Shown here: in pieces, positions 12,547-30,236 of the stretch
Numbering within the stretch: the stretch's first letter is position 1
How the letters are laid out: the number at the start of each line of letters is the position of its first letter
Source: a virus
Reading direction: 5' to 3' (one strand)
Virus record (IMG/VR): IMGVR_UViG_3300036832_000873
Span: 1-34,743 of that record
Length of the DNA: 34,743 nt
Position numbers and translations under genes: made by a program
The notes under the pieces: model-generated
The model's input: only the letters and a program-made list of their open reading frames with translations
What the model was told of the DNA's origin: nothing
The model's database searches: none

Positions 12547-12675
12547 ATGACGCCGAACGAGCCGAACGAGCACGACAACGGCGGTGACGGCCCGCAGCCC
12601 GACCCGTCCGATGACCAGGAGCGCGAGTCGCAGCAGCCCGAAGAAGAGATGCACGACCACACGCGCGACGAGTAA
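12547..12675 (+). CDS. Small acidic protein (42 aa)
   Basis: A 42-residue ORF with ATG 12547, a GGAG site 6 bases upstream and a one-base overlap with the endolysin ATG. It is almost entirely polar and acidic (runs such as DDQERESQQPEEE, ending DHTRDE), with no hydrophobic core, so it is expected to be disordered. I do not recognise it. Coupling to the endolysin suggests either a translation leader or a small lysis-associated protein. Confidence 0.55.
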   Translation: MTPNEPNEHDNGGDGPQPDPSDDQERESQQPEEEMHDHTRDE

Positions 12676-13463
12676 TGCCTGATCCCGTCTCGCTCGCCAC
12701 GGTCCACCACGAGGGCGCCGGCGACCCCACCGACGTGGTCCGCGCCGACGACTACACGTACTGGATCGGCTCCGTCGCCTTCTCCCACATCCAGCCGGTG
12801 TGGGACTCCTACGGCACGTGGAACTTCAACGGCACGTCGCTCGACATCTGCCTGAGCGGCAATCGGATGGAGCACGCGGTCACTGACGACGACATCGAGA
12901 TCGTCCGCGCCGCGTGCGCCGACGCCCGCGCCCGCGGCTACGTCGTCGACAACCCGCAGGTGCGCGACCACCACGATTCGCCCGGCAGCAACACGGTCTG
13001 CTCGGGCGACTTCTCGCGCGCGGTGTGGGGCAAGCTCGTCGCCGCGTGCCAAGCGGACGGTGTCCCGGCGACACCACCGGCACCGAAGCGAGGCGCGATG
13101 GAACTGCAACGAACCAAGAGCGGCCGTGGCTACTACATCGTCGGAGCGGACGGTGGCGTGTTCTGCTACGGCGACGCCAAGTTCCACGGTTCGATGGGCG
13201 GACAGCATCTCAACTCGCCCGTCGTGGGCATGGCCGTGCGCCCGCAGGACGACGGCTATCTGCTCGCCGCTGCGGATGGCGGCGTGTTCGCGTTCGGCAA
13301 GGCACCGTTCCACGGTTCGATGGGCGGCAAGAAGCTCAACTCGCCCATCTGCGACATCGAGTTCGACGCCGAAGGCGACGGCTACTGGATGCTCGCCGAC
13401 GACGGTGGCGTGTTCACCTTCGGTCACACCGCGTTCTACGGCGCGGCTACCGGAAAGGTCTGA
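12675..13463 (+). CDS. Endolysin: N-acetylmuramoyl-L-alanine amidase with cell-wall repeats
   Basis: A 262-residue lysin. Residues 1-130 are a PGRP/amidase_2 domain that cleaves between muramic acid and the stem peptide. TVHHEGAG carries the first zinc histidine, WNFNGTSLDICLSGN is the core strand, and RDHHDSPGSNTVCSGDF gives the second histidine and the cysteine ligand. After a Pro/Ala linker, residues 145-262 hold about three repeats of the form 'GYxxxxxDGGVFxFGxxxFHGSMGG'. Repeats of this type are abundant in secreted proteins of Acidimicrobiia and some other actinobacteria, and probably bind the wall. No signal peptide is visible, so release should need a holin; two tiny membrane proteins follow. 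Confidence 0.9.
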   Translation: MPDPVSLATVHHEGAGDPTDVVRADDYTYWIGSVAFSHIQPVWDSYGTWNFNGTSLDICLSGNRMEHAVTDDDIEIVRAACADARARGYVVDNPQVRDHHDSPGSNTVCSGDFSRAVWGKLVAACQADGVPATPPAPKRGAMELQRTKSGRGYYIVGADGGVFCYGDAKFHGSMGGQHLNSPVVGMAVRPQDDGYLLAAADGGVFAFGKAPFHGSMGGKKLNSPICDIEFDAEGDGYWMLADDGGVFTFGHTAFYGAATGKV

Positions 13464-16144: not shown

Positions 16145-16389
16145 TGAATCACGAGCACGAGTTCGGCGCGGCGCGATTTCGTGAGGTCGCCATGTGCCGC
16201 GCCGACGACGATTGCACCGAGCTGCGCATCGGCACCAGGCGCGGAGGTCTGCGCACGCTGACCGCCGACGAGTACGTGAGTGTGCTCTGCCGCATGATGC
16301 AGGACGTTGCCGTCGCGCAGGCCATGACGATCATCCACGGGCCCGAACGCGGCATGGCCCGGGCGAGAGAAGTGCTGGGGTACGGGTGA
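16144..16389 (+). CDS. Small protein upstream of the ABC/GNAT fusion
   Basis: An 81-residue protein from ATG 16144, overlapping the previous TGA by one base and followed by the ABC/GNAT GTG with a 4-base overlap. It has a beta-like start (AARFREVAMCRADDDCTELRI), then a helix LTADEYVSVLCRMMQDVAVAQA. No family recognised. Tight coupling on both sides suggests it functions with its neighbours. Confidence 0.62.
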   Translation: MNHEHEFGAARFREVAMCRADDDCTELRIGTRRGGLRTLTADEYVSVLCRMMQDVAVAQAMTIIHGPERGMARAREVLGYG

Positions 16390-17528
16390 AGGTCGACGTC
16401 GCCGTCTCGTGCACGCCGTCAACGACGATTCGTGCCGAGCAGGTCAGCGCCGCCTACGACGTGCCCGCCTCCGAGCGCCACACGCTGCGTTGGACGACTG
16501 AGCTCCCGTTGGACGAGCGCGAGTGGAACGTCGGTCTCATCGTCGGTCCATCCGGTGCGGGCAAGACCACGATTCTGCGCGAGTGCTTCGGCGAGCCCGA
16601 ACCGCTGAGCTGGGGCCGCTCGTCGGTCATCGACGACTTTCCCGACGTCGATCTCGAGTCCATCGTGGCGGTGTGCGGCGCGGTTGGGTTCAACACGATT
16701 CCGGCATGGCTGCGCCCGTACGAGCACCTGTCGAACGGTGAGCGCTTCCGTGTCGAGCTGGCGCGCCGCCTCATCGAGCCGCGCGACGTCATCGTCATGG
16801 ACGAATTCACCTCTGTTGTCGATCGACAAGTCGCCAAGATCGGCGCGCACGCCGTCGCCAAGCACGTGCGCCGCGAGGGTCGACGCTTCATCGCGGCGAC
16901 GTGCCACCACGACGTCATCGACTGGCTGCAACCCGATTGGGTGCTGGAGCCGACCAAGGCCCGCGACGTCGACGCCGATACCGGCGACGCCTTCACTTGG
17001 AGGTCTCTTCATCGCCGACCCGACATCGCCTGCCGGATCGAGCGCGTCCCGTTCTCGTACTGGCGGCTGTTCGCTCCATTTCACTATCTGACCGCGCACC
17101 TGCACCCGAACGCTCGCGTCTACGTGCTGTTCGCCGAGGACGAGCCCGCCGCCTGCGCCGGCATCTTGCCGAGGCCGTCACGGTTCGCCGGGCGCAACTA
17201 CGGCATCAGTCGTCTCGTCACGCTGCCCGACTGGCAGGGGCTCGGCCTCGCCTTCGCGCTGATCGACCGCGTGGGTGCGGCGTACGCGGCGAAGGCGTGC
17301 ATGATGCGCGGCTACCCGGCGCACCCCGCGCTGATCCGGGCGATGGATCGCTCGCCGGTATGGGCGCTTGAGATCGCACCGAAGGTGGGCAGCGTCGTGC
17401 GCGGGCCGCACTCATCGCTGCCCGAGAACTGGCACCAGGGCGCTCGCCCCAACGCCACGTTCCGCTACGTGGGGCCGCGCATGTCAGTCGCCGACGCGCA
17501 TTGCCTCATCGACGGACAACCTGGCTAG
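16386..17528 (+). CDS. ABC-type ATPase fused to GNAT acetyltransferase (COG2401-like)
   Basis: A 380-residue two-domain protein from GTG 16386. Residues 1-205 are an ABC ATPase: Walker A GPSGAGKT (54-61), signature LSNGER (115-120), Walker B VIVMDE (135-140), and an H-loop-like TCHHD (172-176). There are no membrane parts, so it is not a transporter. Residues 210-375 are a GNAT-like domain with the acyl-CoA-binding core LPDWQGLGLA (280-289) and the flanking GRNYGISRLVTL. This matches the family described as an ABC ATPase fused to a predicted acetyltransferase. Its substrate is not established to my knowledge. Phage Mu Mom, which modifies adenine in DNA, has a GNAT fold. The next gene encodes an ASCH domain. 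Together these suggest nucleobase acylation, an inference. Confidence 0.85.
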   Translation: MKVDVAVSCTPSTTIRAEQVSAAYDVPASERHTLRWTTELPLDEREWNVGLIVGPSGAGKTTILRECFGEPEPLSWGRSSVIDDFPDVDLESIVAVCGAVGFNTIPAWLRPYEHLSNGERFRVELARRLIEPRDVIVMDEFTSVVDRQVAKIGAHAVAKHVRREGRRFIAATCHHDVIDWLQPDWVLEPTKARDVDADTGDAFTWRSLHRRPDIACRIERVPFSYWRLFAPFHYLTAHLHPNARVYVLFAEDEPAACAGILPRPSRFAGRNYGISRLVTLPDWQGLGLAFALIDRVGAAYAAKACMMRGYPAHPALIRAMDRSPVWALEIAPKVGSVVRGPHSSLPENWHQGARPNATFRYVGPRMSVADAHCLIDGQPG

Positions 17529-17541
17529 AAGATCCCTCCCT

Positions 17542-17901
17542 ATGCGTCGCACGCATGACAGCATGTTCGTCATGCCGGGGCTCTCCTTCCAGAAGCAATA
17601 CATCGACCCGATCCTCGCCGGGCTCAAGCGCGTGACGGTGCGACGCCCGCACAACCACCTGCCGCACGCGGGCGACGAGATCACGCTGCACAACGGCCCG
17701 CGCCCCGCCTTCGCACGTGGCCGCTGCGTCGACGTGCGCCCGTTCACGCTCGATGATTGCGAGCGGCTGTTCGCCTTGGACGGGCACGATTCGCCCGAGG
17801 CGATGCGCGACGCCGTCGCCGAGCTGTACGGCGACGACGCCGAGCTGGTCGTCGTCGTGTTCCGCGTGTCCCGACGTCAGGGGCGACGCGTCACGGCGTG
17901 A
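17542..17901 (+). CDS. ASCH-domain protein
   Basis: A protein of 119 residues from ATG 17542; ATG 17572 (MPGLSF, 109 residues) is equally possible because neither has a clear ribosome site. The start of the domain, LSFQKQYIDPILAGLKRVTVRRP, is the ASCH hallmark. The rest follows the beta-barrel plan: HAGDEITLHN, ARGRCVDVRPFTLDD, a helix EAMRDAVAELYG, and a final strand ELVVVVFRV. ASCH domains resemble PUA folds and bind RNA. One characterised member, E. coli YqfB, removes acetyl from N4-acetylcytidine using Lys and Thr in its 'KTIT' segment. Here the equivalent segment reads KRVT, keeping both. The gene follows the ABC/GNAT gene by 13 bases. Confidence 0.85.
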   Translation: MRRTHDSMFVMPGLSFQKQYIDPILAGLKRVTVRRPHNHLPHAGDEITLHNGPRPAFARGRCVDVRPFTLDDCERLFALDGHDSPEAMRDAVAELYGDDAELVVVVFRVSRRQGRRVTA

Positions 17902-17997
17902 CGTATCCCGCCCCCTGTGCGCCCCTCCCGCGTCGGGCGCGTCGACGTCGAACCCTCGGGCGCACATGCTGCGCAGGCCTTACAGGCACGCATCCCC

Positions 17998-18051
17998 TAC
18001 CCGTGCAGGTTCCATGTGACATTGGAAAGGTGCGACGAACCTGCACGGGTA
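17998..18051 (+). repeat. 15-bp perfect inverted repeat, 24-nt spacer
   Basis: TACCCGTGCAGGTTC (17998-18012) and its exact complement GAACCTGCACGGGTA (18037-18051). The 54-bp size and arm placement resemble a serine-integrase attP. It could equally be a large operator or an RNA stem. Two shorter stems follow without gap: GGTTGTC/GACAACC (18056-18073) and GGGTAGTC/GACTACCC (18074-18096). Confidence 0.85.
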
Positions 18052-18130
18052 GAATGGTTGTCGATTGACAACCGGGTAGTCGCTCAGTGACTACCCCACA
18101 GGGCACGCACCCACGACCATGCGGGAGCGA

Positions 18131-18167
18131 TGTGCGATGACGACGGCGCCACAGCTTGAGTCGCACA
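18131..18167 (+). repeat. Conserved-loop hairpin, copy 1
   Basis: Stem TGTGCGAT (18131-18138) pairs with GTCGCACA (18160-18167), 8 bp with one G-U closing pair. The loop 18139-18159 is 21 nt, beginning GACGACGGCGCC and ending CAGCTTGA. The loop is identical to copy 2 and differs at 2 positions from copy 3. Confidence 0.75.
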
Positions 18168-18187
18168 CGTCGACCGTTCGGGGGCCG

Positions 18188-18233
18188 CGAGCGACGCGAT
18201 GACGACGGCGCCACAGCTTGAGTCGCTCGCTCG
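18188..18233 (+). repeat. Conserved-loop hairpin, copy 2
   Basis: Stem 18188-18200 pairs with 18222-18233: 12 bp with one bulged C (18195) and one G-U closing pair. The 21-nt loop at 18201-18221 is identical to copy 1, but the outer stem sequence is different while still complementary. Confidence 0.75.
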
Positions 18234-18247
18234 ATCGGCAGCGAGCC

Positions 18248-18260
18248 CGCCGCAGCTTGA
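18248..18260 (+). repeat. Degenerate partial copy of the conserved loop
   Basis: CGCCGCAGCTTGA matches the 3' half of the 21-nt loop. Flanking pairing is weak (TCGG 18235-18238 with CCGA 18264-18267), so this looks like a decayed or half unit between copies 2 and 3. Confidence 0.4.
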
Positions 18261-18303
18261 CATCCGAGAACGGTTCTCCTGTTGCGACACGTGCTCAGCG
18301 TGT

Positions 18304-18346
18304 CGACCATCGGCGACGACGGCGCTTCAGCTTGAGTCGGTGGTCG
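18304..18346 (+). repeat. Conserved-loop hairpin, copy 3
   Basis: Stem CGACCATCGGC (18304-18314) pairs with GTCGGTGGTCG (18336-18346), 11 bp including two G-U pairs. The 21-nt loop at 18315-18335 has CA changed to TT in the middle relative to copies 1 and 2. The stem shares no outer sequence with the other copies. Confidence 0.75.
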
Positions 18347-18371
18347 CGCGCGCTGCGCATGATGCCAGCAC

Positions 18372-18384
18372 GACACACGTAAGC
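18372..18384 (+). promoter_or_regulatory. 13-mer element GACACACGTAAGC, copy 1
   Basis: It lies 33 bases before ATG 18405. It is preceded 2 nt upstream by a bulged inverted repeat (18352-18369: GCTG, GCAT / ATGC, CAGC) and followed by AACCAACCAAGGAGACAACC carrying the AAGGAG ribosome site. Confidence 0.8.
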
Positions 18385-18404
18385 AACCAACCAAGGAGAC
18401 AACC

Positions 18405-18611
18405 ATGACCACCGATCCTCGCATCGGCCGTCGCGTGCGCCTCGTCCATTGTGGCGACGAGCACACGCGATTGGAACCCGGCGCGCTCGGCACCGTGACG
18501 TTCATCGATTCGATGGGCACGGTGCACGTGCGATGGGACGACGGGCACCAGCTCGGTCTCGTCTACGAGGCGGGCGACCGCTTCGACTTCGTGCGTGAGG
18601 GCGAGCAATGA
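18405..18611 (+). CDS. DUF4314 protein
   Basis: A 68-residue protein from ATG 18405 with AAGGAG at 18393-18398. The sequence IGRRVRLVHCGDEHTRLEPG, then GTVTFIDSMGTVHVRWDDG and LGLVYEAGDRFDFV, is the complete DUF4314 pattern, a small SH3-like beta barrel. The family is found on phages, plasmids and conjugative elements, and its function is unknown. It heads a three-gene overlapping operon and is the first gene after the hairpin-rich region. Confidence 0.85.
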   Translation: MTTDPRIGRRVRLVHCGDEHTRLEPGALGTVTFIDSMGTVHVRWDDGHQLGLVYEAGDRFDFVREGEQ

Positions 18612-18754
18612 CCGCCGCCAAGCGTTGCGAGCTGTGCGGCGAACGATTCTCGGAACGCGACGAGCGCGCCGAGATGTTCGACCCGACCCGCGAGCAGCCA
18701 TCGCTCATCGTCCACGCCCAATGCGGCATCGCCGCCGGTATGGAGGTGGCGTGA
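18608..18754 (+). CDS. Small CxxC / HxxC protein (48 aa)
   Basis: A 48-residue protein, ATG 18608, overlapping the previous stop by 4 bases (ATGA). RCELCGERF near the start and VHAQCG near the end give a CxxC...HxxC arrangement, a probable single zinc site as in short treble-clef fingers. Both ends overlap neighbours, which supports it being translated. No family assigned. Confidence 0.68.
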   Translation: MTAAKRCELCGERFSERDERAEMFDPTREQPSLIVHAQCGIAAGMEVA

Positions 18755-19045: not shown

Positions 19046-19058
19046 GACACACGTAAGC
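19046..19058 (+). promoter_or_regulatory. 13-mer element GACACACGTAAGC, copy 2
   Basis: It lies 33 bases before ATG 19079 and 2 nt after the inverted repeat 19028-19043. The following leader AACCAACACAGGAGAGAACC is identical to that of copy 3 and includes the AGGAGAG ribosome site. Confidence 0.85.
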
Positions 19059-19078
19059 AACCAACACAGGAGAGAACC

Positions 19079-19507
19079 ATGTCAACCAAGCAAGCGCTCA
19101 AGACTGCGGCCAAGAAGGCGACGCCGGCCAAGAAGGCGGCGACGTCGACCAAGAAGGCGACGCCCGCCAAGAAGGCGACGCCGACCAAGGCAGCAGCGAA
19201 GCGCACGCAGAACGACGAGCCCCGCGCTCGTCTGTCCGACGACGAGGTGCGCACGGCGATCCGTGGTGCGGTCAAGGCCGACCCCACGATGTCGTCGAGC
19301 TGGACTCGCACGTTGCGACACCTGCGCGCCGAAGGGCTCGGCGGCAGCGGCTACGTCCGCTTCCGTGAGCTGTTCGAAGAGGTGACGACAACCGGCAAGG
19401 CGATCGCCAAGAAGGCAACGCCGACCAAGGCGACGCCGAAGAAGGCGACGCCCGCCAAGAAGGCGACGCCCGCCAAGGCGTCTCGTCGCACCGCCACGAA
19501 GCGCTGA
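19079..19507 (+). CDS. Histone-H1-like, Lys/Ala/Pro-repeat DNA-binding protein
   Basis: A 142-residue protein with two basic tails of KKATPAK/TPTK repeats (residues 8-42 and 107-142) flanking a compact domain. That domain covers residues 50-103 (ARLSDDEVRTAIRGAVKADP, SSSWTRTLRHLRAEGLGGSG, RFRELFEEV). The tails resemble the C-terminal tails of mycobacterial HU and eukaryotic H1, which neutralise DNA backbone charge. The middle domain looks like a small helical DNA-binding fold that I cannot name. Likely roles are compaction of phage DNA, silencing in the lysogen or help to the integrase. The DNA of both tails is itself a repeated AAGAAGGCGACGCC-type tract, so length variation is expected. Confidence 0.78.
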   Translation: MSTKQALKTAAKKATPAKKAATSTKKATPAKKATPTKAAAKRTQNDEPRARLSDDEVRTAIRGAVKADPTMSSSWTRTLRHLRAEGLGGSGYVRFRELFEEVTTTGKAIAKKATPTKATPKKATPAKKATPAKASRRTATKR

Positions 19508-19571: not shown

Positions 19572-19584
19572 GACACACGTAAGC
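19572..19584 (+). promoter_or_regulatory. 13-mer element GACACACGTAAGC, copy 3
   Basis: It lies 34 bases before ATG 19606. Its downstream leader matches copy 2 base for base through AGGAGAGAACCA, showing that the leader was duplicated as a unit. Confidence 0.85.
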
Positions 19585-19605
19585 AACCAACACAGGAGAG
19601 AACCA

Positions 19606-20034
19606 ATGAGCTACAACGATGCGACCGTCGAAGGCGCGCCCGCGCCGTCGTTCATCGTCGGAGCAGCTATGGAGGCCGAGCGCGTCCGTGGTCTGCTCAC
19701 CGACGTCGAGCGGTTGTCCGAGCGAGTGCTTCAAGCCGAACGGCTGGCGAGCACCCGTGCGACGTCGCTCAGCGACTTCCAGGAGTACGTCGCCAAGGTC
19801 ACCGCGAACTTCGAGCGTGGGTGCCGTGCTGGCAAGCGTGAGTTCCTCGAGGAACTCGGGCTCGAGATGCCGCCTCGTCGGTTCGACGTCACGGCGCACG
19901 TCGCGTTCACCGTCGAGCTGGACGAGGACGAGGTGTACGAGCACACGTTCCGCGAGCTGATCGAGGACGCGTGGCACGGCAACACCGACATCTCCGTCGA
20001 CTCCATCGAGTTCGAAGAGGACAACGACGCCTGA
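19606..20034 (+). CDS. Unrecognised 142-aa protein
   Basis: A 142-residue protein from ATG 19606; the frame extends back to 19546 only through the 13-mer leader. Residues 20-75 are a likely coiled coil (AMEAERVRGLLTDVERLSER, VLQAERLASTRATSLSDFQE). Residues 80-142 are a mixed, very acidic alpha/beta part: FDVTAHVAFTVELDEDEVYE, ending SIEFEEDNDA. The acidic C-terminus next to a highly basic H1-like gene under the same leader suggests a possible partner or DNA mimic, which is speculation. No known family recognised. Confidence 0.7.
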   Translation: MSYNDATVEGAPAPSFIVGAAMEAERVRGLLTDVERLSERVLQAERLASTRATSLSDFQEYVAKVTANFERGCRAGKREFLEELGLEMPPRRFDVTAHVAFTVELDEDEVYEHTFRELIEDAWHGNTDISVDSIEFEEDNDA

Positions 20035-20099: not shown

Positions 20100-20112
20100 G
20101 ACACACGTAAGC
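20100..20112 (+). promoter_or_regulatory. 13-mer element GACACACGTAAGC, copy 4
   Basis: It lies 29 bases before the integrase ATG 20129. The leader is shortened (GAACAGGAGAGAACCA) but keeps the AGGAGAG site, so integrase appears to belong to the same regulatory set. Confidence 0.85.
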
Positions 20113-20128
20113 GAACAGGAGAGAACCA

Positions 20129-21832
20129 ATGGCAAGAAAGGACGCGACGAGCCCCCGCCCGAAGGCAGGGGCTCGTCCGACACACGTAAGCCGCCCGAAG
20201 GCGACCAACGCGAACGGCAATCTTAGCCGGACGATCGAGTCGCCCAACGAACGGCGTCGCCGCCTCAGGGCGACGAAGCGCCCGAACACATGGCTCGGCG
20301 TGCCGATCGGCGAGGTGCCGCTCACGCGGTACGCGCGCCTGTCGGAAGTGCTGGAACGCAACGACACGGACAACGTGGATATGCAAGACCGGCACACCGC
20401 CGTGCTCGGCGAACGTGAACGGCTCAACGTCGTCGGCGATTGTCTCAAGGACAACGACCGCTCGGCGTCGTGGTTCGGCGCTCAGCATTGCGAGCGCGAG
20501 AGCTACAACGAGCTGATCGCGGCGCTCGTCGGCGGCACAGTCGGCGGTGTCATCGTCACACGATGGGATCGCCTGTGCCGCAACGACAACGACCTCGCCG
20601 AACTCATCGACCTTGGCAATCGCCACGGCTCGCTGTGGGTGTTCTATTGGGACATCGGCCGCCCGGATGGTGGCAACGTCGAGCGCCTCAACCTCGGCAC
20701 GTCAACAGGTCAGGACACCGCACGTCGACTCACGCAAGCATCAGCTCGTGAATCGAAGCAGATGTCCGAACGCATGACGGGCCGCAAGAACGACAAGCGC
20801 CGCGAGCGCGGCGTCTCTGGCGTCGGTTGCAGCGCGTTCGGTTGGTTGGGCAAGCGACACAGCACAGCGAAGCGCCCGGTCCTCAAGAGCGACGGCATGA
20901 CGCCGCACCCTCGCGAGGCGAAGGAGATTCGCAACGCTGTGAAGCACTACCTGGACGACGGGTGGACGCTCACGATGGTCACCGAGGATTGGAACGCTCG
21001 ACGCGTGCCGACCCCTCGTGGTGCCAAGTCGTGGGACGTCAGCCGCGTGCGAGACATCCTCGCCAATGAGCGCCACGCCGGCCTCATCGACGTCGAGGTG
21101 GAGCCCGGCAAGTGGGAGCTGCACAAGGCGGCATGGCACGCCAACGCCATCATCAGCGAACACGACTACCGAAGGGTGAAAGCCAAGATGAACGCCAACA
21201 AGGGCAACGCGCCGGGACCGAAGCGGATGCTGACGTCGCTCGTACGTTGCACCGAGTGCACGTGCATCATGCGTGCGCACATGAGTGGCAAGAACGTCCA
21301 GTGGCGGTGCTTGCGCCAACCTGGCCGGGACGCCTGCGGCGGCATCGGGTGCGTGGTGCCCAACGCGTACGTGGAGCATTACGTCACCGAATGGCTGTTC
21401 GACATCTTGCACGGCAAGAAGATGAAGGGCGCACAACGTGCACGCCAGACGAAGGCACGCGACATCGACCTCACCCGTGAGGACGTGCAACGTCGCTACG
21501 ACAGCCAGATGCTGGGCGAACGCATGAGCGACGAGGCAATGGCAATCGCACGTCGTCAGTACGACGAGGCGATGGCGCAGCTCGAAGCGCAGGCGCACAA
21601 CGTCGACCGTGCGAGCGAACAGGCTCGCTACATCGCCGAAGGCGATCGCATCATCGCCGAGTGGAACGCCGGTCAATGGGACGACGCCGAGAAGCGGGCG
21701 CTCGCCCAGGCGTTCATCGAAGCGGTGTGGGTCAGCCCGAGGCAAGGCAAGGTCAACCGTGGCCCTGTGCTCGAACCCGAGGACGAGGCCGTCGCACGAT
21801 GCGAGATCATCCGGCGCAAGCCGATCGGATGA
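20129..21832 (+). CDS. int: Large serine recombinase (integrase)
   Basis: A 567-residue site-specific recombinase that would insert the phage genome into the host chromosome. The resolvase domain begins near residue 66: RYARLSE carries the nucleophilic Ser (about residue 72), followed by DNDRSAS, RESYNELI and VTRWDRLCRND. The long helix has ASARESKQMSERM. A recombinase domain follows (PREAKEIRNAVKHYLDDG, RVRDILANERHAGL). The zinc ribbon is at about 371-410 (VRCTECTC ... CLRQPGRDACGG), then a coiled-coil region. It has an unusual basic N-terminal extension of about 65 residues. Inside that extension is another hairpin plus a 13-mer copy. The ATG at 20129 is supported by the AGGAGAG site. Confidence 0.92.
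   Translation: MARKDATSPRPKAGARPTHVSRPKATNANGNLSRTIESPNERRRRLRATKRPNTWLGVPIGEVPLTRYARLSEVLERNDTDNVDMQDRHTAVLGERERLNVVGDCLKDNDRSASWFGAQHCERESYNELIAALVGGTVGGVIVTRWDRLCRNDNDLAELIDLGNRHGSLWVFYWDIGRPDGGNVERLNLGTSTGQDTARRLTQASARESKQMSERMTGRKNDKRRERGVSGVGCSAFGWLGKRHSTAKRPVLKSDGMTPHPREAKEIRNAVKHYLDDGWTLTMVTEDWNARRVPTPRGAKSWDVSRVRDILANERHAGLIDVEVEPGKWELHKAAWHANAIISEHDYRRVKAKMNANKGNAPGPKRMLTSLVRCTECTCIMRAHMSGKNVQWRCLRQPGRDACGGIGCVVPNAYVEHYVTEWLFDILHGKKMKGAQRARQTKARDIDLTREDVQRRYDSQMLGERMSDEAMAIARRQYDEAMAQLEAQAHNVDRASEQARYIAEGDRIIAEWNAGQWDDAEKRALAQAFIEAVWVSPRQGKVNRGPVLEPEDEAVARCEIIRRKPIG
20148..20191 (+). promoter_or_regulatory. Hairpin plus 13-mer inside the integrase 5' coding region (13-mer copy 5)
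   Basis: CGAGCCCC (20148-20155) and GGGGCTCG (20168-20175) form an 8-bp stem with a 12-nt loop. GACACACGTAAGC follows at 20179-20191, 3 nt later. No start codon with a ribosome site follows within 50 bases, so here the composite element cannot be serving as a leader for another gene. It might be a second binding site controlling integrase. Confidence 0.65.
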
Positions 21833-23572: not shown

Positions 23573-24558
23573 GCGTCGTGCTCGACGACGCCCGCACGGT
23601 CGCGTTGGCGCCCACCGAACCCGGCTCACCCGAGTGGCTGGCGCAACGTGCCGATGCCATCGGTGGCAGCGAGGCGGCGGCGTGCTGCGGGCTCGACCCG
23701 TACTCATCGCCGCTGGCGCTGTTCCTCACTAAGACCGGCGTCATCGCCGACGAGGACAACGAGGCGATGGCGTGGGGCCGGCGCATGGAGGAACCGATCG
23801 CGGCCGAGTGGTCCGAGCGCAGCGGGCTGTACCTGCTGCGACCGACGTGCGCCTTCGCTCACATCGAGCACCCGTGGATGCACGCCAACGTGGACCGCTT
23901 CGTGTTCGAAGCACCGGCCGCGAGCATCGTCGGCGAACCGCTCGGCATTCTCGAGGTGAAGTTCAGCCACGACGCCGAGCGCTGGAGCGGCGACACGCCG
24001 CCCGACCACCACGTCATCCAGGTGCAGCATTGCCTCGCCGTCACCGGCATGGAGCACGGCTGGCTCGTCGGCGCAATCTCGACCGGGCACCGCCTGCGCC
24101 TCGTCGTGCACGAGATCGAGCGCGACGAGCTGCTCATCGACCGAATGATCGAGTGCGAGGCCGAGATGATCCGGCGCATTGACGAGGGCGACCCGCCCGC
24201 GGCGAGCGCCGACGATGCCGACGTGCTCGCCGCCGCCTTCGCCACGCCGACGACCGGCGCGCACGTCGAGCTGCCACCCGCAGCGCGGTACGTGCTCGAT
24301 GACCTGGCAGCGGCGAAGGTTCGCGTGAAGCGCGCGCAGGCCGAGGTCGACCGCAACACGAACCAGCTCCGGGTGTGGCTCGGCGATGCCGAGGTCGGGA
24401 TGCTCGACGGCGACGAGCCGGTCACCTGGCGCGGACACGACGTCACTCGGCTCGACATCAAGCGGCTGCGCAAGGAGCGGCCGGACGTGTTCGTCGAGTT
24501 CGCCAACACGACCGTCGAGCGCCGCCTGCTGGCGAGCGCACGGAAGGAGCGAGCATGA
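23569..24558 (+). CDS. YqaJ-type exonuclease
   Basis: A 329-residue protein from GTG 23569. It is a PD-(D/E)XK nuclease of the YqaJ/lambda-exo group that resects double-strand ends to feed the annealase. Key segments are the entry motif IGGSEAAACCGLDPYSS (about residues 31-47), AWGRRMEEPIAAEW (conserved Glu), MHANVDRFVFE (Asp of the active site) and LGILEVKFS (ExK). A C-terminal helical extension (AKVRVKRAQAEVDRNTNQLR and the rest) is typical of phage versions. It forms an operon with the RecT gene one gene downstream. Confidence 0.9.
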   Translation: MSVVLDDARTVALAPTEPGSPEWLAQRADAIGGSEAAACCGLDPYSSPLALFLTKTGVIADEDNEAMAWGRRMEEPIAAEWSERSGLYLLRPTCAFAHIEHPWMHANVDRFVFEAPAASIVGEPLGILEVKFSHDAERWSGDTPPDHHVIQVQHCLAVTGMEHGWLVGAISTGHRLRLVVHEIERDELLIDRMIECEAEMIRRIDEGDPPAASADDADVLAAAFATPTTGAHVELPPAARYVLDDLAAAKVRVKRAQAEVDRNTNQLRVWLGDAEVGMLDGDEPVTWRGHDVTRLDIKRLRKERPDVFVEFANTTVERRLLASARKERA

Positions 24559-25157
24559 ACCTGTCCACCATCGAGGTCGACCCGGCCGAGGCCGAGGCCA
24601 AGCTCGCCGAATACGAGGGCGTGCTCGCCAAGGACCGCATGATCGAGGACGAGGCGATCGCGCAGGCGTACCGCGCCGTCAAGCGCGGCATGCCGATCCT
24701 GCGGCTCTCGCAAGCCATCGAGCGCGGCGGGTTCTTCCCGAACGGATGGCCGCGGCTCGCCATCGTCCGCGCCGACGCCACCGAGTGCTGGGTGAGCGAC
24801 CACAACGACTGGCGCAACGGCGGCTTCGACTACGTGTTCACCGACGCCGAACACCGCAGCAGCTACGGCGCACTCGTCGGCGAGCACACGGTGCGCGTGC
24901 ACGTGAACGACCGCCCGAAGCCCGAAGGCAGGCGGACGAGTCGAGCGCACACGCTGGTCCCGGTGATCCCGCCGCACGTGCGCCCAAAGCGCCCGAAGCT
25001 CGCTCGCCTGCACGTGCTGTGGGAGGTCGAAGAGTGGGCGAACGTGGCCCCGCGCGACCCGGCGCTGCTTCGCCATGTGCGCGGCGACCTGTGGGTGGTG
25101 CTCGCGATGTGGGAGCTCACCGAGCTGGAACGGCTCGTGCTCGGACAGTCGTCGTGA
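24555..25157 (+). CDS. Conserved unknown protein between exonuclease and RecT
   Basis: A 200-residue protein from ATG 24555, overlapping both neighbours by 4 bases. Its C-terminal part resembles a domain I have seen in many uncharacterised bacterial and phage proteins: LVPVIPPHVRP, LARLHVLWEVEEW, RDPALLRHVRGDLWVVLA and MWELTELERLVL. The N-terminal half has LSQAIERGGFFPNGWPRL and DYVFTDAEHRSSYG. It has no catalytic motif I can name. Its place inside an exonuclease-annealase pair implies a role in recombination or in loading RecT. Confidence 0.72.
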   Translation: MNLSTIEVDPAEAEAKLAEYEGVLAKDRMIEDEAIAQAYRAVKRGMPILRLSQAIERGGFFPNGWPRLAIVRADATECWVSDHNDWRNGGFDYVFTDAEHRSSYGALVGEHTVRVHVNDRPKPEGRRTSRAHTLVPVIPPHVRPKRPKLARLHVLWEVEEWANVAPRDPALLRHVRGDLWVVLAMWELTELERLVLGQSS

Positions 25158-26095
25158 GCGGCGGCGACGTCGAGGTACGAGACAAGATCACGCCACCGCG
25201 CTCGGCTCCGACCGTGTTCGGGCTCATGGAGGACTACCGCCCGCAGATCGCTCGTGTGTTGCCGACCGGCAGCGGCGGCGTCGATCGGTTCATGCGCATC
25301 CTGCGCACCGAGCTACAGCGCGACCCGAAGCTGCACGAAGCGGACGGTCACTCGTTCCTCGGCGCGGTGCTCACGATGGCGTCGCTCGGTCTCGAGCCCG
25401 GCCCGGCGCTCGGTCAAGCGTGGCTGTTGCCGTTCAAGGACAACCGGCGCCGGCGCACGGTCGCCACGCTCATCATCGGCTACCGGGGCTACACGCTGCT
25501 CGCCGTGCGCAGCGGGCTCGTCACCGCGGTCGACAGCGAGGTGGTGCACCAGCGCGATCGCTTCGTGTTCCATAAGGGTTCGCACCAGACGATCGATCAC
25601 GACTGGCCGCTCGACGGCGAACGCGGCGAGGTCATCGCGTCGTGGGCGATGGCGTGGATGCGCGAAGGCGGCGAGCGCTTCGAGGTGCTGCGCAAGGACG
25701 ACATCGAGCGCCGCCGCAAGCGGTCGCCTTCCGGGCGTCGTGACGATTCGCCGTGGGCGACCGATTACCCGCAGATGGCCCGCAAATCCGCGGTGCGTGC
25801 GCTGATGACGCAGCTCCCGCTGTCGGTCGAGATCGCCGCCGCGATGCGCGCCGACGAGACCGTGCGCACCGACTTGGAGATGCCGTTGGAGGCGTACGCC
25901 GCCAGCGAGGACGACGAGGCCGAGGCCGACGAGCCCGAGGCCGACGAGCCCGAGGCGCCCGAGCAGGCCGCGGCGAAGGAGCCCGCCGGAGAACCCGGCG
26001 AATCGGCGGCCGCGGCGTCGCCCCCGAAAGGAAAGGCGTCGGCATCCCCGCGGCCGTCGAACGAACCCGAGACACCGACCGAAGGAGGCACGTGA
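25154..26095 (+). CDS. recT: RecT-family single-strand annealing protein
   Basis: A 313-residue protein from GTG 25154. Residues 15-240 are a RecT domain: PQIARVLPTGSGGVDRFMRI, HSFLGAVLTMASLGLEPG, GQAWLLPFKDN, ATLIIGYRGYTLLAVRSG, and the closing YPQMARKSAVRALMTQLPLS. It coats 3' single strands made by the YqaJ exonuclease and anneals them to complements. The last 65 residues are an acidic, then Ala/Pro/Ser-rich tail with an EADEP repeat. It resembles the acidic tips that contact host SSB-type partners. This annealase and the exonuclease also explain how a linear genome could circularise or recombine. Confidence 0.92.
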   Translation: MSGGDVEVRDKITPPRSAPTVFGLMEDYRPQIARVLPTGSGGVDRFMRILRTELQRDPKLHEADGHSFLGAVLTMASLGLEPGPALGQAWLLPFKDNRRRRTVATLIIGYRGYTLLAVRSGLVTAVDSEVVHQRDRFVFHKGSHQTIDHDWPLDGERGEVIASWAMAWMREGGERFEVLRKDDIERRRKRSPSGRRDDSPWATDYPQMARKSAVRALMTQLPLSVEIAAAMRADETVRTDLEMPLEAYAASEDDEAEADEPEADEPEAPEQAAAKEPAGEPGESAAAASPPKGKASASPRPSNEPETPTEGGT

Positions 26096-27347: not shown

Positions 27348-28019
27348 ATGGCGTGGGTTCGGATCGACTGCACCCACCAACGGCACCCCAAGGTGGTGCA
27401 GGCCGGGCCGATGGCCGAGCTGCTTGACCTGCGGGCCATCGCCTACAGCGCGGAGATGGAGCTGGACGGACGCGTCCCAAGCGCGGCGCTGGGACAGATC
27501 GGGCGCGGTATCCCACGCGTGAAAGTCGCGGTGAACCGGCTCGTCAAAGCGGGCAGATGGCGCGAGGCGTCACGCCGTGACGGCGGCGATGGTTGGGTGA
27601 TCCACGACTTCCTGGAGAACCAGCCCAGCAAGGCTGAACGGGAAGCCGACCGCGCCGCGGCACGAACCCGTCAACGCGCATTCCGAGCCCGCAATAACGG
27701 CGTGACCGACACCGCGCGTCACGCCGTCAGTCACGCAGCACAAGACGACACGACACGGACGAAGAACAAATTGAGCGCAGAGCGCAGAAAAGCGCAGCCT
27801 GTGGATAAGGACGAACACGAGCGTCAGATGGCCGCAGCGCGCAGCACGCTCGCCGAGACCGTGCGCCCGCCGTCGCGGACCGCCGTTCGCACCGTGACCT
27901 GCCCAGCGTGCGGCGCAGAGCCCCACAAGGTGTGCATCGGAGCGCGACGCGAACGCGTGGCGAACCACATGGAACGAGTCGACCGATACCTGGAGACACA
28001 AGCCCGTGACGTGGGTTGA
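27348..28019 (+). CDS. Winged-helix replication initiation / replisome organiser-like protein
   Basis: A 223-residue protein from ATG 27348. The N-terminal 95 residues have the phage replisome-organiser plan: MAWVRIDCTHQRHPKVVQAG, a helix LLDLRAIAYSAEMELDG, RVPSAALGQIGRG, then KVAVNRLVKAGRWRE and WVIHDFLENQPSKAERE. The last block is the hallmark that ends these winged helices. A long basic linker leads to a Cys-rich C-terminal module, TCPACGAEPHKVCIGARRE plus RVANHMERVDRYL, possibly a zinc finger. As no helicase, primase or polymerase is visible, this is the only obvious replication protein and probably recruits host DnaB machinery. The origin may be in or next to this gene. Confidence 0.78.
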   Translation: MAWVRIDCTHQRHPKVVQAGPMAELLDLRAIAYSAEMELDGRVPSAALGQIGRGIPRVKVAVNRLVKAGRWREASRRDGGDGWVIHDFLENQPSKAEREADRAAARTRQRAFRARNNGVTDTARHAVSHAAQDDTTRTKNKLSAERRKAQPVDKDEHERQMAAARSTLAETVRPPSRTAVRTVTCPACGAEPHKVCIGARRERVANHMERVDRYLETQARDVG

Positions 28020-29076: not shown

Positions 29077-29174
29077 CGCACACCAGCATCATCGTCCGAC
29101 GCGGCGTGACGGGTCATCGGAGGCTGCCGTAGCGTTATGCGTGACACACGTAAGCGCTTCGAAGGAGACACCGA
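29077..29174 (+). promoter_or_regulatory. Intergenic control region with 13-mer element (copy 6)
   Basis: The 13-mer GACACACGTAAGC stands at 29143-29155, 32 bases before ATG 29175, and a GAAGGAG ribosome site follows. Upstream TAGCGT (29130-29135) could be a -10. Unlike the other copies, no convincing hairpin ends just before this 13-mer. It lies 9 kb from the main group, so it marks a distant member of the same set. Confidence 0.65.
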
Positions 29175-30236
29175 ATGACCAACCATCACCTCGACGTGAG
29201 AACGCCACGAGACGTTCCCGAGCTGCGGAACCTGCTCGTCGACTGCTGGCTGCCGGGCGGCGTGTTCGCCGCCACGTCGGTCATCATGCCGAACACCACG
29301 CTCACCCAACACGAGGGCGCTCGGCCCGAGTACGCGTGGCACCTCGACAACCTGCCGCCCGCCACGCTGTATTGGGTCAGCGCACCAATGTGCGACCTCC
29401 TCAGCGCCGCCGAGCACACCGTGCCCGACGACACCGTGCTCGAGCGGGAGCTCGTGCCGCAACGCTCGGGGCTCGTCGTGTTCGAGAAGCCGCTCGTCGG
29501 CATCGACGCACAACGCGACTCGGCCGTGCGCGTCGACGCCATGTGCTGGGGCCCGGTGCGGCTCGCCAAGTTGCAGAACGTCATCGGCGGCGCAGTCGTG
29601 CCGATCACGCCGCTGCATCTGCTCGATGCGGTCGGCATGGTCAGCTACTCCCGGCACAACGCCGACGAGGGGCTCAGCTCGGACGCGCTGATGCACGCGC
29701 TCAACACGGGCGCGATCGACCAAGCGGTCGCCGAGGATCGGGGCGGCGGCGAGTTCTCGCTGCACGGCGACATCTGGGCGTGGCTCGGGCGCGGCGACTG
29801 GCTGTTCGACACGTCGATCAACCATCGCGAGACGCCGTACACCGACCAGGCATTCGCTTCGATCACCGAGGACCGTCGACGCCTTGCCGCGTTGTGGCTG
29901 TTGCTGTCGCAACCCGGCATGGTGAGCATGTCCGTGTCCAGCGGTTCTCGGGGGGAGCGACGTCGGGCGCAGCGTGGGGGGAGTGCCGCGCCCGACGTCG
30001 CCATCATCGACATCGCCCGTCGACACGCGTCCGCTACTGCCGCCGATGTCGGCCCGCCGACCGGACGCCACCATCACGTGCGCTACCCGGTAAGCGGGCA
30101 TTGGCGACAGCAGGCGTACGGCGAGGCCCGAGCGTACAGACGACCGACGTGGATCGCCGCACATTGGCGCGGGCCCGACGACGCGCCGATCAGCAACGTC
30201 GAGCACGTGCGCGTGTTCCGAGGGGGTGACCGATGA
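29175..30236 (+). CDS. Unrecognised 353-aa protein with conserved 'GHWRQQAYG' C-terminus
   Basis: A 353-residue protein from ATG 29175. The first 240 residues are mixed alpha/beta (VDCWLPGGVFAATSVIMPN, GLVVFEKPLVGIDAQ, RRRLAALWLLLSQPGMVSMS), followed by a low-complexity Arg/Gly/Ser linker. The C-terminus, VRYPVSGHWRQQAYG, RRPTWIAAHWRGPDDAPI, then EHVRVFR, is a block I associate with actinobacterial and actinophage proteins of unknown function. A role in replication or host takeover is possible. It is the only long gene in its region, and the only one here with the 13-mer leader. Confidence 0.75.
   Translation: MTNHHLDVRTPRDVPELRNLLVDCWLPGGVFAATSVIMPNTTLTQHEGARPEYAWHLDNLPPATLYWVSAPMCDLLSAAEHTVPDDTVLERELVPQRSGLVVFEKPLVGIDAQRDSAVRVDAMCWGPVRLAKLQNVIGGAVVPITPLHLLDAVGMVSYSRHNADEGLSSDALMHALNTGAIDQAVAEDRGGGEFSLHGDIWAWLGRGDWLFDTSINHRETPYTDQAFASITEDRRRLAALWLLLSQPGMVSMSVSSGSRGERRRAQRGGSAAPDVAIIDIARRHASATAADVGPPTGRHHHVRYPVSGHWRQQAYGEARAYRRPTWIAAHWRGPDDAPISNVEHVRVFRGGDR

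Follow-up and report, generated by a model that had tools for sequence, protein, structure and literature searches.

A candidate RNA switch built from putative kink-turn hairpins upstream of a DUF4314 gene in two related phages

Kink-turns occur in ribosomes, snoRNAs and riboswitches and have also been described in a few orphan RNAs of bacteria. According to published rules for these motifs, a cytosine at position 3b goes along with good folding in metal ions, and folding is improved by 4b:4n = G:U and supported by -1b:-1n = C:G (PMC8191799). Phage HK022 has put, an RNA of about 70 nt folded into two stems, which binds RNA polymerase and thereby suppresses termination (PMC9378689), and in cluster K mycobacteriophages the start codons carry SAS, a 13-bp GGGATAGGAGCCC repeat, with the 17-bp inverted repeats of ESAS upstream (PMC3203893). 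Our search of the open literature returned no description of a phage leader composed of repeated kink-turn hairpins. The array that we present here looks, judging by its sequence, like an apparently new RNA switch.

The window, that is the whole stretch of DNA analyzed in this study, is the 34.7-kb record IMGVR_UViG_3300036832_000873, and all its coordinates are counted from position 1. It is a temperate, siphovirus-like phage with genes for portal, capsid, tail, terminase, a serine integrase, RecE/RecT-like proteins and a replication initiator. The RecT-like domain occupies the C-terminal half of a 569-aa frame (24386-26095) whose N-terminal ~280 residues are without assignment, while the protein encoded at 16194-17528 joins an ABC-type ATPase part to a GNAT acetyltransferase part (phrog_11143), has 79% identity to its counterpart in the relative introduced below and is widespread in viral contigs. 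The array is situated on the + strand, within 503 nt of non-coding sequence that separate an ASCH-domain gene (17560-17901, +) from a DUF4314 gene (18405-18611, +). A preliminary description of this DNA had claimed three hairpins here, and we find them where it placed them: W1 at 18131-18167 (core 18139-18159), W2 at 18188-18233 (core 18201-18221) and W3 at 18304-18346 (core 18315-18335). Their 31-nt repeat units are 100%, 100% and 81% identical, with 0 expected in shuffles, and follow each other at irregular distances of 62 and 114 nt. The stem lengths given earlier also hold, with a canonical (C) stem of 8 bp in W1, 12 bp in W2 and 11 bp in W3 and closing pairs U.G, U.G and C-G; note that the 12 bp of W2 contain one bulged C and that 5 bp are contiguous from the core. 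On the + strand, the region 17980-18400 folds 5.5 SD better than dinucleotide shuffles (z -5.5). The - strand of the array stretch also folds better than shuffles (z -4.3), as is expected with complementary stems. In ToxI-like systems, regularly spaced tandem repeats of RNA and a terminator stand ahead of a gene for a ToxN-type toxin. We rejected such a type III toxin-antitoxin identity for the present repeats, as their spacing is irregular, a terminator is lacking and the next gene is DUF4314.

A pattern search identified a second carrier, IMGVR_UViG_3300036846_000898 (L001/L132; G001), that is collinear with the window at protein identities of ~37-80% and holds four copies (L1-L4) at the same place, on the strand of its DUF4314 gene. 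This orientation of the array to DUF4314 is kept although the neighboring ASCH gene is inverted in the relative. The inverted gene is found at L132:3966-4268, and the order of its neighbors is unchanged. Only these 2 carriers were found. With specific patterns L001 was the sole further carrier among viral contigs, and a looser pattern produced many single matches that had no stems; three genome matches were rejected as carriers because they likewise lacked stems. Except for L001's own contig, no array was found with relatives of DUF4314, nor with 80 relatives of the ABC-ATPase/GNAT gene. A covariance model returned the seven known copies plus weak matches only from 50 whole viral records, and the five best of these weak matches resembled Asp-rich coding or unrelated sequence. 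In 395 genomes of the likely host class we obtained 12 matches, with a similar number for the reversed control, and the covariance model gave no match against 296 actinobacteria, an empty result that proves little. A blastn search of the array region against phage records was also without match. The element had been proposed as a candidate new structured RNA, and no Rfam family matches it: the window yields 0 matches in Rfam 15 at the gathering cut-off, and a permissive search of 17850-18450 gave chance-level matches only.

The core is constant in 7/7 copies and reads stem-GAC-GA-C-GGC-(4 or 6 nt)-GCU-U-GA-stem. The preliminary description had taken it for a simple constant loop of 21 nt; instead, it consists of an asymmetric internal loop with a 3-nt GAC bulge in every copy, a 3-bp inner stem and a variable apical loop of 4-6 nt. 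In all seven copies GA stands opposite GA, followed by C:U and then GGC/GCU, the G.A and A.G pairs being read from the sequence only. The GAC bulge adjoins the covarying C stem in 7/7 copies, and next to it come G.A, then A.G and then the NC stem, a succession that makes the internal loop a probable kink-turn; as the core never varies, this assignment is made by layout and not by covariation. Position 3b:3n is C:U and 4b:4n is G:U, while -1b:-1n is C:G in three copies and U.G in four, a pair that the cited rules do not cover. By this layout and the published rules the putative kink-turn may well fold in Mg2+ in the absence of protein. Note that the internal loop comes out differently in ViennaRNA, a program that has no model for kink-turns. 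A generic kink-turn descriptor gave 1.3 matches per 100 kb in 4.1 Mb of other sequence (both strands), with no cluster of three within 300 nt, against 3 and 4 clustered matches in the carriers. A degenerate fourth copy that had been proposed at 18248-18260 is matched neither by this descriptor nor by the covariance model, and shares only CAGCTTGA without the GACGACGG half. Loop-loop kissing through GGCGCC, as had been suggested, is not supported either: in the relative, L1-L3 have the tip CUCG and lack this palindrome, and W3 has GGCGCU in its place, so that kissing is not conserved; the copy adjoining the gene in the relative, L4, has the tip GCCCCA.

In the stems, the sequences differ among the seven copies and pairing is retained in all of them. 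When the arms were exchanged among copies in all 5040 ways, only 2 arrangements, one of them the real one, reached the observed pairing of 56 contiguous pairs, compared with a mean of 25. In alignment A6, standard pairs fill 85.7% of the cells versus 55.4% in shuffles, both sides have changed in 9 of 11 stem pairs, and the covariation score of 0.782, versus 0.256 in shuffles, was reached by 0/500 shuffles and by none of the slid-partner controls (at most 0.22), although most copies are paralogues within arrays, possibly duplicates, and these counts do not represent seven independent events. The earlier claim that the differing yet complementary stems reflect selection on RNA structure is in line with these values. 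In the one clearly orthologous pair, W3 and L4, 11/11 pairs are kept with one A-U/G-C double change and two switches between G.U and Watson-Crick pairs, and the consensus fold of the two contains a further double change lower in the stem. The preliminary description had named relatives that keep the sequence and lose the pairing as the finding that would speak against it; in the only relative found, the pairing is kept. It had further held that pairs near the core are stable in plus-sense RNA only, and indeed in 5/7 stems a G.U occupies the first or second position from the core. On the - strand these pairs would turn into A.C and would not close, which marks the + strand as the structured one, and a minus-strand function was rejected. 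The reading of the array as a plus-strand structured RNA whose pairing would be under selection is thus supported, and from the initial interpretation this part stands while the simple loop, the kissing and the fourth copy fall away.

The 3' part of the leader adds a second element. In both phages the leader offers no better partner for the Shine-Dalgarno (SD) region than a conserved CGGUUCUCCUGUUG. The anti-SD strand (18271-18293, +) comprises CGGTTCTCCTGTTG (18271-18284) and ACGTG (18289-18293) and is conserved in L132 at 4856. In a scan of the whole leader for partners of the ribosome binding site (RBS), 17 and 6 of 1000 shuffles were as good in the two phages, for a pairing that was noticed after the fact. 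In both phages the thermodynamic folds of the 3' domain show the anti-SD:SD helix and an ACGUG:CACGU helix enclosing the last kink-turn-like hairpin, W3 in the window, together with a small conserved hairpin GCTG...CAGC (18352-18369, +) that is located between W3 and the RBS strand. The RNAalifold consensus retains the SD pairing, and the anti-SD helix contains no double changes. When the leader of the window is folded at full length, another structure has the lowest energy, with SD pairs still present in its ensemble, so that two states are possible. At the leader head, sequence and folds indicate a 5' hairpin GGGTAGTC...GACTACCC (18074-18096, +), at the place of which the relative has an unrelated hairpin, GUGAGCG...CGCUCAC. 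Further upstream a promoter-like element, AAAGGT-N18-TAGAAT (18026-18055, +), predicts a leader start at ~18062. The pattern AAAGGT-N18-TAGNAT, picked after the fact, occurs once per phage and at the corresponding place upstream of the array, and a sigma-70 consensus scan gave no match.

From layout, published rules and folding we consider it reasonably probable that the array is a cis-acting 5' leader RNA whose kink-turn hairpins gate the SD sequence. An mRNA starting at ~18062 would carry the array within its 5' leader and encode DUF4314 (PF14192, 2.5e-18), an early gene and the proposed target, downstream. The strand at 18271-18293 would pair with the SD region at 18376-18403 and thereby close a multi-branch loop around the last kink-turn hairpin; this closed form would be the translation-off state. 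Binding or stabilization of the last hairpin would favor or disfavor the closed form, and the upstream copies may serve as extra binding sites or as a sponge. Speculatively, the DUF4314 protein could be the ligand of its own leader, as could some other protein of the phage or the transcription complex.

The position of the array, just downstream of the promoter-like element and ahead of a long block of genes on the same strand, would also suit a put-like antitermination element, in which the hairpins, as they emerge, would contact RNA polymerase or a phage protein attached to it and allow read-through of terminators in the long + strand operon. The put RNAs of HK022, too, are stem-loops with internal bulges that lie in leaders behind early promoters (PMC9378689), and the DUF4314 protein brings in a further resemblance. 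Its AlphaFold model (pLDDT 88.9) confidently predicts a small SH3/KOW-like barrel that is KOW5/SH3-like by VIA-align and resembles SPT5 KOW5 at Z ~7, with no match at E 0.001 or better in the fold search; note that this fold is common and proves nothing on the role of the protein, for which our literature search found no open paper. Nevertheless, put is a ~70-nt RNA with two stems and no array of a repeated core (PMC9378689), a search of 17850-18650 yielded no terminator-like site, and the conserved anti-SD strand would be left unexplained, so that we regard an antitermination element as unlikely.

The cis-acting leader that we favor ends in a sequence that is not confined to DUF4314. The ATG of this gene is preceded by a start leader, GACACACGTAAGC-AACCAACCA-AGGAG-ACAACC (18372-18404, +), and further + strand copies stand at 19046-19078 before the gene at 19079, at 19572-19605 before the ATG at 19606, and at 20100-20128 before the serine integrase at 20129. 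A fifth copy stands at 29143-29178, and the form repeated before the five genes is GACACACGTAAGC...AGGAGA..ACC(A)ATG. Copies of ACACACGTA...AGGAG thus number five in the window, and there are four in the relative (G001), each set before genes, with none in two more distant records (G002/G008) and none in reversed-pattern controls. Another exact GACACACGTAAGC at 20179-20191, inside the start of the annotated integrase frame, suggests a second or later integrase start, and G001:19307-19330 is possibly comparable to it.

The anti-SD strand pairs with these other starts, that of the integrase included, as well as with its own, with predicted trans energies of -23.6 kcal/mol for the copies at 19046-19078 and 19572-19605 and of -26.8 kcal/mol for the integrase. 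CsrB is a titration RNA in which repeated hairpins carry one constant element. The array is reminiscent of such RNAs, and the leader might be cut or terminated before the gene and then act in trans, as an antisense RNA that pairs with other start leaders or as a sponge that titrates a hairpin-binding protein. Pairing at least as good as with its own RBS is predicted for three other RBS leaders in the window and for two in the relative (-23.6 to -28.4 kcal/mol), and in L132 0/1451 windows were as good. This complementarity, however, follows from the one start leader that the genes share, and no terminator ends the leader before the DUF4314 gene, which makes a purely trans-acting RNA a rather improbable reading. 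Within the proposed cis-acting leader, the anti-SD strand might, speculatively, also act in trans on the start-leader genes, the integrase among them.

Upstream of the array a perfect 16-bp inverted repeat (17997-18052; arms 17997-18012 and 18037-18052, 100%) straddles the promoter-like element and is likely to be a repressor operator; in the relative (L132), different inverted repeats surround the same promoter-like element. Of the further stems that had been reported around the array, those within 17997-18052 coincide with the likely promoter or precede it and are possibly a DNA operator. With such an operator-like repeat nearby, with the repeats standing in non-coding DNA of a temperate phage and with G.T pairs being tolerable in single-stranded DNA, the array itself could be taken for a DNA element, be it replication iterons, repressor operators or single-strand DNA hairpins. 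We hold this to be very unlikely: the half-sites are conserved while their spacing shifts by 2 nt and the flanking stems covary, none of which is required of a double-strand site, and a tip of 6 nt in some copies and 4 nt in others, between halves that both stay conserved, speaks against an operator or other rigid binding site in double-stranded DNA. Moreover, the replication initiator gene (27348-28019) is 9 kb away, and the copies all point the same way with respect to the gene. Least probable of all is a small coding sequence, a 69-aa frame at 18199-18408 that runs into the DUF4314 start at ATGA, gives TTAPQLES where it crosses the repeats and matches one frame of the relative in tblastn (46% identity over 54 aa, E 1e-9), but has no conserved start codon or RBS, differs at its 3' end from the relative, where it is fused in frame, is thrown out of frame between the two halves by the 4-nt tips of L1-L3, and in the last hairpin has stem changes that keep pairing and fall on all three codon positions.

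If the array is a leader of kink-turns, the question arises of what reads it. The amidase-like endolysin (12675-13463) contains DGGVF.(F/Y)GDA repeats that match 19/296 Actinomycetota with up to ~60% identity over the full stretch, and since these repeats match proteins of a subset of Actinomycetota, an actinobacterial host is suggested; both phages probably infect actinobacteria. No L7Ae-type protein was found in the phage ORFs scanned. L7Ae-family hits over the cut-off came from 1/296 sampled Actinomycetota and from 2/198 genomes of the class with the best endolysin-repeat match, a tentative host assignment, and were marginal and inside frames of 243-277 aa. L7Ae-type proteins are nearly absent from the sampled Actinomycetota. 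As hits are few and marginal, the putative kink-turn would either be self-folding, as its sequence suggests, or be read by something else. One may imagine, as a combination that we think doubtful in its entirety, that a self-folding kink-turn array in a host group lacking L7Ae is the sensor of an RBS-closing leader and brings several early genes, the integrase among them, under joint control by way of the start leader that they share. If true, this would amount to RNA-level control of the choice between lysis and lysogeny. The array, if real, would be a compact test case for the reading of kink-turns in bacteria that lack L7Ae-family proteins, and also for whether a temperate phage coordinates early genes by a common start leader and an antisense strand within one leader.

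Among described systems, riboswitches and ribosomal protein leaders that sequester the SD sequence resemble the proposed leader in that a conserved anti-SD strand pairs with the RBS beside a structured, possible sensor; the present leader differs from them in having no Rfam match at gathering scores and a candidate ligand only. The start leader is comparable to SAS/ESAS of cluster K mycobacteriophages as a short conserved sequence before the start codons of several non-structural genes, with some copies preceded by an inverted-repeat structure (PMC3203893). We rejected its assignment to that family, as its sequence is ACACACGTAAGC...AGGAGA.AACC and not GGGATAGGAGCCC, and ESAS is a 17-bp inverted repeat (PMC3203893), unlike the kink-turn hairpin array. 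HK022 put is of other sequence and shape, whereas the array consists of 3-4 repeats of one core plus a putative SD-sequestering domain. OLE RNA would share with the array a kink-turn within a bacterial non-coding RNA, which in OLE is bound by YbxF/OapC and works as a protein-binding site (PMC9723947); OLE, however, has one kink-turn in an RNA of 600 nt, belongs to Bacillota and comes with a YbxF protein, while the array belongs to a phage leader for which no such protein was found. Kink-turns with L7Ae or YbxF as partners differ in the same respect, as no partner of that family was found in the phage ORFs scanned. The array also departs from known kink-turns by its C:U at 3b:3n and by being a set of separate hairpins, arrayed in a phage leader, whose kinking is predicted. 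With Kt-7, box C/D, Actinomyces-1 and RAGATH-18 its core nevertheless has in common the 3-nt bulge, the G.A/A.G pairs and the passage from a canonical stem to a short inner stem, and it shares 3b = C with the Actinomyces-1 kink-turn (C:C) and 4b:4n = G:U with those of drum, HOLDH and RAGATH-18 (PMC8191799).
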